Assembly: GCA_027012135.1 (NCBI GenBank)
Contig: JALUZF010000076.1
Span: forward strand, 1-35,040
Direction: 5' to 3'
Origin: Gammaproteobacteria bacterium
GTDB taxonomy: Bacteria; Pseudomonadota; Gammaproteobacteria; GRL18
DNA: 35,040 nucleotides
The translations under genes were made by a program, and so were the position numbers. How positions within the stretch are numbered: position 1 is the stretch's first letter; each line of letters starts with the position of its first letter. This document shows, piece after piece, positions 27,123 to 31,836 of the stretch. The notes below the pieces were generated by a model. It searched no databases. It had not been told where the DNA came from and was given only the letters and a program-made list of their open reading frames with translations.

Positions 27123-27965
27123 ATGAGGAACCTTTACCAGGAAGCCAAAAGCTGTTTTTTAACGGCGGATCCGGATGAAAAAATGCAGCTGAGTCTGGAA
27201 ATTGCATCAGCCTGGGATGCCGGACAGCTACAGTGGCAGGAGGGTGAGCTCCCATTAGAACCGGTATTGCAGCTTAATCAGCCCGGTCGGCTGGAGAAAC
27301 CGGAACTGGTGGCCGCAGGCAAGGTAAAAAACCGGGGCTTTAAGTCTGTTCAGCAGCGTGCGGCTCTGATCCATGCTCTGGCTCATATTGAAATGACTGC
27401 TGTTAACCTGGCCTGGGACAGTATTTATCGCTATCGCCAGATGCCCAAAGAATATTATGCTGACTGGGTAAAAACCGCCAGAGAAGAAACGCAGCACTTT
27501 TATATGCTGCGCCAGAGTTTGCGGGACATGGGTTATGATTACGGTGATTTTCCGGCACATAATGAATTATGGCAGATGGCGGTTACTACGGCAGATGATT
27601 TAATGGCCCGCATGGCTATAGTACATCGGGTGCTGGAAGCGAGAGCCCTGGATGTGGTACCTTTCTCGGTGGACAGGTTTCGGGCTATTGGCGATAAAGC
27701 CACAGCCGATTCACTGATCATTATTGCCAATGATGAAATCGGGCATGTGAATGCCGGCTCACGCTGGTTTCGCTATTGCTGTGAACAGCAGCAGGTGGAT
27801 GCTGATGCCATGTTTTTCAAACTGATCAAACAATACCTGCGCTCCACACCCAAAGGGCCCTTTAACCGGGAGGCGCGTATAAAAGCAGGTTTCAGCAATT
27901 GGGAAATGCAGGAACTGGAACGGCAGGATGCCCTGTTTAAGGCCAATAAACTTAAAAATAATTAG
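27123..27965 (+). CDS. DUF455 family ferritin-like protein
   Basis: Protein of 280 aa of the DUF455 family, which has a ferritin-like four-helix bundle with a probable di-iron centre. Candidate metal ligands are visible in HALAHIEMTAVNLAWD, REETQHFYML and IIANDEIGHVNAGSRWF, each with an E-x-x-H type arrangement on a long helix. The N-terminal 80 residues carry an RPGRLEKPELV-like segment (here QPGRLEKPELVAAG). Precise function unknown; some relatives act on tRNA or are redox enzymes. An AGG precedes the ATG. The gene ends in a bidirectional terminator. Confidence 0.85.
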   Translation: MRNLYQEAKSCFLTADPDEKMQLSLEIASAWDAGQLQWQEGELPLEPVLQLNQPGRLEKPELVAAGKVKNRGFKSVQQRAALIHALAHIEMTAVNLAWDSIYRYRQMPKEYYADWVKTAREETQHFYMLRQSLRDMGYDYGDFPAHNELWQMAVTTADDLMARMAIVHRVLEARALDVVPFSVDRFRAIGDKATADSLIIIANDEIGHVNAGSRWFRYCCEQQQVDADAMFFKLIKQYLRSTPKGPFNREARIKAGFSNWEMQELERQDALFKANKLKNN

Positions 27966-27982
27966 AAAATCCCTCATCCAGA

Positions 27983-28003
27983 CCTTCTCCCAAAGGGAGA
28001 AGG
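27983..28003. terminator. Bidirectional hairpin between DUF455 and hslR
   Basis: CCTTCTCCC (27983-27991) and GGGAGAAGG (27995-28003) form a perfect nine-bp stem over AAA, between two convergent genes. The surrounding CCCTCATCC motif makes it similar to a common dispersed hairpin in proteobacteria. The position suits a shared terminator, though the T tracts are poor. Confidence 0.6.
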
Positions 28004-28027
28004 AACCTGCACTGAAATGGACGGGTA

Positions 28028-28447
28028 TTAATTATTCTCCTGTTTAAACTGAATAATCTTCCTGCGCTCTTTTTTACTGGGACGCCGTGACTGAAACTGC
28101 GGCATACCGGCCATCATGACCTTGCGTTCCTGCAGCTGCTTTTCTCTGCGCTCTATACTTTCCCGGGTTTCTTCATAAAGTGTCTGGGCCACTTTAGCCG
28201 GGCCGCGTTTGGCAGACAGTTGTTTAATGATCACCGTCTGTTCAATGGATTCTTTCTTTATGCGCACAGTATGGCCAACTTCAGCATGATGGCTGGGTTT
28301 GACCCTCTGGTTGTTTAAATGTACCTTGCCGCCTTTAATTGCTTCGGTGGCCAGTGAGCGGGTTTTGTAAAAACGTGCAGCCCAGAGCCACTTGTCCAGA
28401 CGAACCACCTCGTTTTGTTCAGATGAGGATTTTTGTGATTTACTCAT
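28028..28447 (-). CDS. hslR: S4-domain RNA-binding heat shock protein 15
   Basis: Hsp15 binds stalled 50S subunits carrying peptidyl-tRNA. The 139 residues have the S4 RNA-binding motif near the N-terminus: RLDKWLWAARFYKTRSLATEAI (about 16-37), GGKVHLNNQRVKPS and VGHTVRIKK. The C-terminal third is strongly basic (PSKKERRKII), as in the family. It lies between the DUF455 gene (convergent) and the RAYT-like gene (divergent). Confidence 0.93.
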   Translation of the reverse strand: MSKSQKSSSEQNEVVRLDKWLWAARFYKTRSLATEAIKGGKVHLNNQRVKPSHHAEVGHTVRIKKESIEQTVIIKQLSAKRGPAKVAQTLYEETRESIERREKQLQERKVMMAGMPQFQSRRPSKKERRKIIQFKQENN

Positions 28448-28628
28448 AATTTGCCGTATTAAAATAATTGCAATTTATTAAAAAAAACTGGTTAAAAATA
28501 GCGCAATTGAAAAAAAGCGTCTATAAAGTATAAGTATAACGCTATTACCTGTTAAAAAAGCAGTGTAAAAGTATAAATAAAAAGTGCAGATAATAAGTAT
28601 TGAAAGATAAAGGTTAAAAGGTGTAGTT

Positions 28629-29465
28629 ATGGCAAGGCCAGTACGAATAGAGTATTCAGGCGCATATTATTTTATTTCCTCAAAAGCTGCCCCGGATGAG
28701 ACGGTTTTTAAAGACACTAAAGATCGTCAGGAATTCCTGACTGTATTGCAGGACGTGGTCAAACGTATGCACTGGGAAGTTTTTGCCTATAATCTTATGC
28801 CTGACTCCTACCAGTTGTTTATAAAAACCCCTAAGCCTAACCTGTCCAGAGGCATGAGACAGCTAAACGGTGTCTATACTCAGCGCTATAATGCCAAATA
28901 TGAAACGACCGGTAATATTTTTCATGGCCGCTTTAAGGCCGTACTGGTTGAGGCTAAACATTCATTTGAGGATGTCCTTAAATATGTGCTGTTGATGCCC
29001 ATGCTCAAACGTAAGGCACGCAAGCTGGACAAATGGAAATGGAGCAGTTATCAGGCAACCATGGGTATGTCCGAAGCACCGGAATGGTTAAAGGTGGATG
29101 AAGTCCTGTCCTATTTCGGTAAACAGCCCAAACGTGCCCGTGCTGCCCTGCAAAAAGCACTTGAAAATACCGATAAGGATTTTGACCTGATGGCACAGGT
29201 AAAGGCGCAGATCCTGCTGGGCAGTGATGCCTTTGTCAATAAATGGAAAAAGCAGCTGGTTACGGGCAAAATTATGGACAGGGCCAGACAGAGAAAGTCT
29301 AAAAAAGTAAAACCATTAACAGATTTTGGTAAACGCTTCAAAAATATCAAGGTGGCTATGGTCAAGGCTTATGAGACCGGAAACTATACCCTGGATCAAA
29401 TCGGTTCACATTTCGGGGTACACTACAGTACGGTTAGCCGGACGGTAAAAAAAGCCGGTCTGTAA
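28629..29465 (+). CDS. RAYT/IS200-like transposase-fold protein lacking the HUH motif
   Basis: Full-length 278-aa member of the Y1 transposase fold, REP-associated group. The start MARPVRIEYSGAYYFISS and the central NLSRGMRQLNGVYTQRYNAK and GNIFHGRFKAVLVE are close to canonical family motifs. The HUH metal site, normally MxNHYHLL, reads MPDSYQLF here: both histidines are replaced by Ser60 and Gln62. The candidate catalytic Tyr119 (KYVLLMP, canonical YVxLNP) remains. Residues 248-276 form a helix-turn-helix (LDQIGSHFGVHYSTVSRTVKK). The frame is intact and AAAGG precedes the ATG. Metal-dependent single-strand cleavage is unlikely without the histidines. Sometimes such proteins are mislabelled RelE toxins. 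It may be a domesticated DNA-binding protein; that is inference. Confidence 0.85.
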   Translation: MARPVRIEYSGAYYFISSKAAPDETVFKDTKDRQEFLTVLQDVVKRMHWEVFAYNLMPDSYQLFIKTPKPNLSRGMRQLNGVYTQRYNAKYETTGNIFHGRFKAVLVEAKHSFEDVLKYVLLMPMLKRKARKLDKWKWSSYQATMGMSEAPEWLKVDEVLSYFGKQPKRARAALQKALENTDKDFDLMAQVKAQILLGSDAFVNKWKKQLVTGKIMDRARQRKSKKVKPLTDFGKRFKNIKVAMVKAYETGNYTLDQIGSHFGVHYSTVSRTVKKAGL

Positions 29466-29505
29466 TTAACGGAAGTAATTCAGTAAAAAGTAATTCAGTG
29501 AAATT

Positions 29506-30192
29506 TTAATGAATTCTTTTGAAGATATATACCCTGGCATTTCTGTCTTTTACAATAAATTTATTGGGTTCATGGTAAAACTGAAACTGCAGGGTGGTTT
29601 TATTGGCTGGAATATAGGCATAGAGTATATTATTCTTAACCAGTAATCGCCCGGCAATATTACGTGTGTTGCCGTCAGACCAGATAAAGCGGTTATTATT
29701 GTAAATGGCAATGACATTACCCGTCTGAGACTGCCAGATCCCATTCATATTATTACTATTCTGCTGCTGATAATTGCCTGTCTGCGGGGTGCCGGATGCG
29801 GTATTTTTACTGTTCAGATCCCAGAAACTACCCTTGCTGTTGTATGCGTTATTGTAATTACTGCTGCTGGTATTCTGCCCGGTGGGAAAATTATCACTGT
29901 AGCTGTTAGTAAAATTATTGACCGGCAGGTTTGCAGCCATCGGGAAATTATTCATTGCATAGAGATTATTGCCCATCCCCGGCATAAAACCGGGTGAATA
30001 AGGCATACCGTACAGGCTTGAGTAATAATTACCACCACCACCACCCATAATATCATTCATTGCTCTAATCATGGCCGCCATCATTTCTACAAACGGCAGA
30101 TCACGCCAGTCATTATTTTTATAATAACTGCCTGCAAGCGACTGGCTGATTAGAACAAAACACAGTAATAAACTGCTGATGAGGTGTTTCAA
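29506..30192 (-). CDS. Secreted Asn/Ser/Tyr-rich protein with C-terminal beta domain
   Basis: Unrecognised protein of 228 aa. It starts with TTG at 30192, supported by AAGGA six to seven bases upstream; the next ATG would remove the signal peptide (KHLISSLLLCFVLISQSLAG). The mature N-terminal half is low complexity, with GGGGG at about 51-55 and many Asn, Ser, Tyr, Met and Pro residues (through residue 148). The C-terminal 80 residues (GIWQSQTGNVIAIYNNNRF onward) look like a compact all-beta, lipocalin-like domain ending VYIFKRIH. It converges with the RAYT-like gene. Surface or periplasmic location is likely; function unknown. Confidence 0.6.
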   Translation of the reverse strand: MKHLISSLLLCFVLISQSLAGSYYKNNDWRDLPFVEMMAAMIRAMNDIMGGGGGNYYSSLYGMPYSPGFMPGMGNNLYAMNNFPMAANLPVNNFTNSYSDNFPTGQNTSSSNYNNAYNSKGSFWDLNSKNTASGTPQTGNYQQQNSNNMNGIWQSQTGNVIAIYNNNRFIWSDGNTRNIAGRLLVKNNILYAYIPANKTTLQFQFYHEPNKFIVKDRNARVYIFKRIH

Positions 30193-31697: not shown

Positions 31698-31766
31698 GAC
31701 GTTTTATAATAATATCCGGGTTAAAGTGGTAACGGCTGGAATTTAAAGTTCAAGGCTCTATTTTTT

Positions 31767-31836
31767 GCGTTCAGGACTGTTTTAGCGTTCAGGACTGTTT
31801 TAGCGTTCAAGACTGTTTTTAACGTTCAAGACTGTA
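31767..31836. repeat. Tandem repeat, about 18-bp unit, four copies
   Basis: Units begin GCGTTCAGGACTGTTTTA at 31767 and 31785 (identical), with a 19-base variant at 31803 and a partial one at 31822-31836. Read on the minus strand, the first unit forms the last codons and stop of the 60-aa membrane peptide gene, so the array looks like serial duplication of that gene's 3' end in the leader of lptG. Confidence 0.85.

Follow-up and report, generated by a model that had tools for sequence, protein, structure and literature searches.

The closest described relatives of the protein considered here are the TIR-associated TIRYT transposases, whose elements end in the motif GGGGWSAS (Di Nocera 2013, PMC3733652), and the HTH-bearing TnpA-REP proteins of subclass 2.1 (Quentin 2018, PMC6006769). 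In the former account, HUH and Tyr are conserved in every aligned TIRYT, while the latter retained only sequences with HuH and Y (722 of 924), stating that missing core motifs suggest non-functional proteins. The same source (PMC6006769) describes Y1 transposases as dimers that recognise folded DNA, and counts the Asn of the LNP motif, N119 in E. coli TnpA-REP, as a third ligand of the metal. TnpA-REP, or RAYT, proteins have additionally been described as domesticated (PMC8266576). Within those parts of the open-licence PMC literature that were searched, no description of catalytically dead RAYT or TIRYT proteins kept by selection was found.

The window analysed here, a stretch of 35,040 nucleotides from a Gammaproteobacteria bacterium (GenBank assembly GCA_027012135.1, contig JALUZF010000076.1), contains a gene of this kind whose product has lost residues required for DNA cleavage. 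The features on which the argument draws are as follows.

28629..29465, + strand: catalytically dead Y1-HTH (TIRYT/RAYT-like) protein of 278 aa, from ORF, Pfam and orthologues
28629..29018, + strand: Y1-type core, residues 1-130 (Pfam Y1_Tnp at residues 25-120; low-confidence model)
28803..28814, + strand: former HUH site, residues 59-62, D-S-Y-Q versus N-H-Y-H in active relatives
28839..28952, + strand: residues 71-108, with the lowest pN/pS of seven tested regions; a conserved segment in active relatives
28983..28997, + strand: former tyrosine helix, residues 119-123 (Y-V-L-L-M)
29349..29453, + strand: C-terminal helix-turn-helix (HTH), residues 241-275, from HTH models, pLDDT and pN/pS
28493..28540, no strand assigned: 48-bp conserved block containing GTCTA(C/T)A, a possible promoter/operator, in the gap that separates the dead transposase gene from its divergent Hsp15-like neighbour
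28028..28447, - strand: divergent neighbour, an S4-domain protein (Hsp15/HslR-like), beside the gene wherever an orthologous contig reaches
29506..30192, - strand: convergent neighbour with no Pfam match, its place conserved wherever contigs reach

The reading frame at 28629-29465 (+) is open over all 278 codons, as the first-pass annotation had stated, and the protein matches Pfam Y1_Tnp at 37.6 bits (cut-off 23) and NCBIfam REP_Tyr_transpos at 47.3 bits, under that model's cut-off of 80. The C-terminal HTH claimed in the same annotation is also kept: residues 241-275 match HTH models, all below cut-offs, and have a pN/pS of 0.035. With TIRYT and TnpA-REP subclass 2.1.2 the protein shares a Y1 core with an HTH-type C-terminal extension; the earlier label of RAYT-like needs amending, the nearest known group being the TIR-associated TIRYT or subclass 2.1.2 and not the E. 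coli type. The protein can be aligned over its full length with the 60 relatives retrieved, and its own genome (3.9 Mb, 325 contigs) holds a single gene of this kind above cut-off. A PDB sequence search returned colicin N as its sole match (E 0.17, taken as chance), and an Rfam scan of 27900-29600 found no family.

Structure prediction is of low confidence, with an AlphaFold pLDDT of 54 for the full protein and 57 for the core, and of 84-90 for the HTH block within the full model. With the low-confidence core model, the top Foldseek matches were IS200/IS605 and TnpA-REP structures at E values of at least 0.016, and VIA-align gave Z scores of 5-6 to Y1 transposases, tied with ribosomal protein S6, a result that agrees with a Y1 fold but does not count as evidence for one. 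The HUH, Tyr and Asn positions of E. coli TnpA-REP (4ER8) align with those of the active relatives, in a weak match (E 0.054).

A class-wide profile search of 369 genomes, 84 of them with a match at E<=1e-35, found full-length Y1-HTH proteins to be widespread; mainly the full-length ones among its 118 matches were classified, with broken or partial rows excluded (also G374, G307 and G277:C7). The relatives found number 88, of which 77 are full length, comprising 17 orthologues and 60 others. Among these 60 unbroken proteins outside the orthologue group, H-x-H is intact in 56 and lost in 4, and the active comparison set numbers 55, L030 (G005, NHYHL) being excluded as a distant type. The nearest active relatives, found in other families, share about 40% identity. 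No relative was found in the viral contigs scanned; plasmids yielded four records, the best (36%) from Legionella adelaidensis with NHYHL and YIVLNP intact.

H60 and H62 occur in all 55 comparable full-length relatives and N59 in 98%, and the set H-H-Y-N is kept by 55 of 55. The window protein has D-S-Y-Q at residues 59-62, which bears out the earlier observation that both HUH histidines are replaced, and has Tyr at residue 119 and Met in place of Asn at residue 123. The change of LNP to LMP had also been noticed correctly, and its meaning can now be amended: with this Asn a third metal ligand has disappeared. The window protein thus retains one of four core catalytic residues, Tyr119, and this is a relic, as the orthologues below indicate. 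Also replaced are H15, C55, H96 and Q99, which all 55 relatives share.

These changes characterise an entire orthologue group, collected by a search of 57 relatives together with all 24 available family genomes. The first-pass annotation had proposed a search for homologues sharing S/x/Q at the HUH site, and Q62 with S or A at position 60 is indeed found in all 17 full-length orthologues, in each of which N123 has given way to M, V, T or L. Position 119 is Tyr in three of the 17 and His in 14, so that the preservation of Tyr119 claimed earlier applies to the window protein but not to its family. Among the 85 columns conserved across the 55 active relatives, the dead orthologues have kept 46 and lost 39, including H15, C55, N59, H60, H62, H96, Q99, Y119 and N123, and new near-invariant residues stand at old catalytic columns (e.g., N55, S60, Q62, N96 and H99).

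The transposon ends have disappeared as well. An end pattern, GGGTCA[GAC][GT][TC]C, lies upstream of 46 of the 55 active relatives (0.05 per set in shuffles), and these GGGGTCA-type ends, which mostly lie 43-55 bp ahead of the start codon, fit the GGGGWSAS motif of TIRYT elements. The intact pattern is present in none of 20 distinct dead flanks (those of G004, G018 and G017 being short on one side); inspection of G012 by eye found no GGGTCA end in 300 bp upstream or the first 120 bp downstream, and no TIR-like end occurs in the window or in the 279,191 bases scanned from the family, which are a small, partly overlapping fraction of the genomes. The inverted repeats flanking the window gene are AT-rich, mostly imperfect and of no other sort.

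The 17 orthologues come from two genera (three of six genomes of the window's genus and 14 of 16 of the other), are 60-95% identical, contain no internal stop and differ in length only by whole codons; outside the window's family, internal stops occur in 9 of 115 matches of the class-wide search. The earlier annotation held that a recently dead transposase would be indicated if homologues with the substitution were absent or all frameshifted; what was found is 17 intact orthologues at one locus. The same gene arrangement recurs at every orthologous locus within contig reach, with few local gains or losses, and continues past the convergent gene with LptF/G-like, ApaG, ComFB and RsmA-like genes. 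So constant a position is not what a mobile element would be expected to show. The product of the convergent gene (29506-30192, -) has a Gly/Asn-rich first part and, at 44-66% identity to most orthologues, diverges more quickly than the proteins of the adjacent genes; the gene nevertheless always lies beside the dead transposase where contigs reach. An 18-bp tandem repeat in four copies (window 31762-31835) precedes the LptF/G-like gene, and in G018 a tandem repeat of the heptamer AAGTTGT lies just past the transposase gene, near the contig end (L052:9626-9662).

The other seven family genomes show mixed states and no full-length orthologue. In G013 the gene is truncated by the contig end past residue 38, in G003 the contig terminates within hslR, and no hslR was found in G005. 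G002 has the upstream block followed directly by an insertion with an IS3-like transposase, with no gene seen (L159:2638-3227), a possible natural knock-out. Neither gene nor block is present in the small-genome relative G023, where hslR touches the downstream neighbour (L163:5380-5620), as would follow from loss or an empty site; in G006 and G007, from two further genera, hslR is present and both gene and block are absent.

Selection on the orthologues is strong and unevenly distributed. As the first-pass annotation had proposed, dN/dS was computed among homologues (NG86, limited to the 15 of 136 orthologue pairs with dS<1.5), and values of 0.037-0.233, mostly 0.04-0.08, indicate strong purifying selection; for the G000-G004 pair the ratio is far below 1 (Fisher p 1e-17). 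Pooled pN/pS is 0.030 for residues 71-108, 0.035 for the HTH and 0.073 near the former HUH site, but 0.247 in the tyrosine helix and 0.241 in residues 131-190, so the HTH and a core segment remained under constraint, which was relaxed at the catalytic helix. Single copy, fixed locus and purifying selection, the attributes of a domesticated host gene, are thus all present. By these comparisons, the reading frame is a real, conserved pseudo-transposase and not a product of chance or decay.

Upstream, the 48-bp block matches its consensus at 47 of 48 positions in the window (28493-28540), at 48 in G018 and G016, at 47 in G022, G015 and G014, at 45 in G017 and at 43 in G001, compared with 26-37 in the remaining orthologues with usable upstream sequence (G004 is excluded, as its contig starts near the gene). 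Three gene-bearing genomes (G009, G020 and G021) have a diverged block. G018 and G016 both retain 48/48 although their dS of 1.42 places synonymous sites near saturation, and the neighbouring divergent intergenic region has no such similarity (by eye, two genomes). Allowing up to three mismatches, 16 of the 24 family genomes each contain a single copy of the block core (reversed control 0), and the 27-base core has its sole occurrence in the window's own genome in the 28493-28540 region. Where hslR occurs without the gene (G006, G007 and G023), the block was not found. Promoter-like hexamers overlap the block, seen by eye on the + strand and predicted on the - strand as TTAACA-17-TATACT, and the block is probably a promoter plus operator. 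Two other interpretations were rejected: as a relic left transposon end, it scored no higher than shuffles, with a matrix built from 46 active ends, in the 16 genomes out of 17 that allowed scoring, and as an inverted-repeat operator it was no better than shuffles in the 15 distinct sequences compared (lowest value 0.07).

Two further structures were observed near the start codon. Six sister-genus 5' leaders (G022, G008, G019, G015, G012 and G014; L053, L055, L056, L057, L060 and L061) have a hairpin between block and start codon whose arms have changed yet still match (CCATGT/ACATGG, GCGTGT/GCACGC, CCGTGT/ACGCGG), with loops of 4-52 nt. In G004 (L165 near 4430, L050:1-40), a MITE-like element, its inverted ends reading CCTAAAAAAATCAGTT / AACTGATTTTTTAGG, apparently lies between block and gene, where the contigs break.

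Altogether, exaptation of the dead transposase as a host protein is very strongly favoured, and the earlier suggestion of reuse after active-site loss is upheld by the 17 intact orthologues at one locus under purifying selection. The more specific suggestion of DNA-binding or regulatory reuse draws on conservation of the HTH, of residues 71-108 and of the upstream block, and on the strongly positive charge of the protein; that the dead protein is a DNA-binding regulator is likely at a lower level of confidence. Narrower still, a TIRYT that lost its catalysis and was exapted to bind DNA, with the block at its own divergent promoter as likely target, is on balance the preferred reading, and the block taken separately as the target falls slightly short of an even call. 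In the sequence of events we envisage, a TIRYT-type element (Y1/HUH with C-terminal HTH) would have inserted beside an hslR-like gene in the ancestor of the two genera and lost its ends and all metal ligands, one genus losing the tyrosine as well, while the protein would have been kept as a host DNA-binding regulator without cleavage. The Y1 core may serve as a dimer and DNA-binding platform, with the basic linker and HTH reading the target, most plausibly the 48-bp block in the divergent promoter region. Because the core segment was kept, a basic C-terminal part gained and the HTH left nearly unchanged, binding without cutting would be the simplest use, and because block and gene are present or absent together, the block is the obvious first target. 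The dead protein may control its own gene and perhaps the hslR-like gene, although hslR also exists without it; a purely self-regulating protein would hardly be retained.

Several other explanations were weighed against this one. It is unlikely, though the strongest competitor, that the block is a mere conserved bidirectional promoter and the protein a regulator or nucleoid-type protein acting at other sites. The overlapping hexamers and the lack of a palindrome above chance agree with the promoter, and action elsewhere would suit a very basic protein, with a net charge of +25 versus +9 in active relatives (+15 versus +4 over residues 201-278; both differences partly confounded by low GC). However, conservation of 47-48/48 at near-saturated synonymous divergence exceeds that of the neighbouring intergenic region in the two genomes compared by eye, and block and gene are jointly absent where hslR stands alone. 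Rather improbable is binding of folded ssDNA or RNA hairpins by the Y1 core, as in TnpA-REP but without cleavage, for example at its own leader hairpin in post-transcriptional autocontrol. The strongest constraint does fall on core residues 71-108, and arms such as CCATGT/ACATGG recur in several sister-genus leaders, but the hairpin is better than shuffles (p<0.05) in only six of ten anchor-motif genomes, three of these (G008, G012 and G019) being near-copies, and none was seen in the window's own genus.

A remodelled active site, in which invariant Q62, N96 and H99 (with His119 in 14 of 17) replace HUH/Tyr chemistry, is very improbable: the old pocket has new near-invariant polar residues, with H96/Q99 becoming N96/H99, and the HUH region is constrained at 0.073, but position 119 is Tyr or His within a relaxed helix, position 123 varies among M, V, T and L, and the ends are gone. 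Scarcely more credit can be given to dominant-negative protection, in which the dead protein would bind the GGGGTCAGGTCTTG ends of active TIRYT elements and block them. In its HTH, the recognition helix is very similar to that of active relatives, yet neither the window nor the 279,191 bases from the family, a small part of its genomes, contain a TIR-like end, and the closest active relatives, at about 40% identity, reside in other families. That the gene is a recently dead transposase heading for decay would fit one copy without ends in its own genome, but is refuted for the clade by 17 intact orthologues spanning 60-95% identity at dN/dS far below 1, leaving it a negligible probability.

Exaptation as a DNA-binding protein may have occurred more than once. 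Dead copies were also found in three other families, namely G079 (to which G215 adds a partial sister copy), G145/G259 and G099, all at loci other than that of the window's family. Purifying selection is indicated by dN/dS of 0.085 for G145-G259 and 0.114 for G079-G215 (partial). G145/G259 show a one-base-off end, GGGG[A/G]CAGGTCTTG, at the canonical 46 bp, matched as well by 2 and 1 of 100 shuffles, and the dead copy of G079/G215 lies tail-to-tail with a 608-aa ATPase-like ORF (L142:585-2408, L143:9788-11611) at a locus common to both. A single ancient clade of all dead genes was considered, as a masked tree joins 20 of 21 dead rows (100/98), but is contradicted by the differing loci and by the different or weakly supported places at which lineages attach when added singly. 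Added alone, the window's family groups as sister of an active clade with four members (SH-aLRT 100), G079 falls near that same active clade (56), G145/G259 join another (81) and G099 lies inside a further clade (99). Since long branches may attract, we limit the claim to two to four independent catalytic losses, as estimated from the sequences.

Among known systems, the protein most resembles TIRYT/TIRtron proteins, that is, TnpA-REP subclass 2.1, in its Y1 core and HTH_23/HTH_28/Bac_DnaA_C-like C-terminus, but differs in having neither catalytic metal ligands nor ends and in its fixed locus. With E. coli TnpA-REP (RAYT, 4ER8) it shares the Y1 family, whereas the E. coli protein is catalytically competent, is shorter at 165 aa, lacks the long HTH extension and has REP hairpins as substrate. 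Bertels and colleagues have reportedly worked on domesticated RAYTs. RAYT-type transposases are termed domesticated despite intact catalysis, which makes the host benefit hard to name; in a clade that keeps the protein without its catalysis, DNA binding stands apart from cleavage, and a short candidate target makes host function directly testable. Surveys that filter on HuH and Tyr discard exactly such dead proteins. TldR proteins are nuclease-dead. They are RNA-guided transcription factors related to TnpB (PMC13418256), and the likeness lies in the passage from a transposon-type protein to a regulator, a role that is inferred for the dead Y1 protein; unlike TldR, the window protein goes back to a Y1 transposase and carries an HTH. 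As a tentative generalisation, TIRYT-type Y1/HUH transposases may repeatedly have become dead host regulators (two to four times in the Gammaproteobacteria sample), with a new, extremely conserved operator in its own divergent promoter in the window's family. If true, dead TIRYT regulators would stand to TnpA as the TldR regulators do to TnpB.
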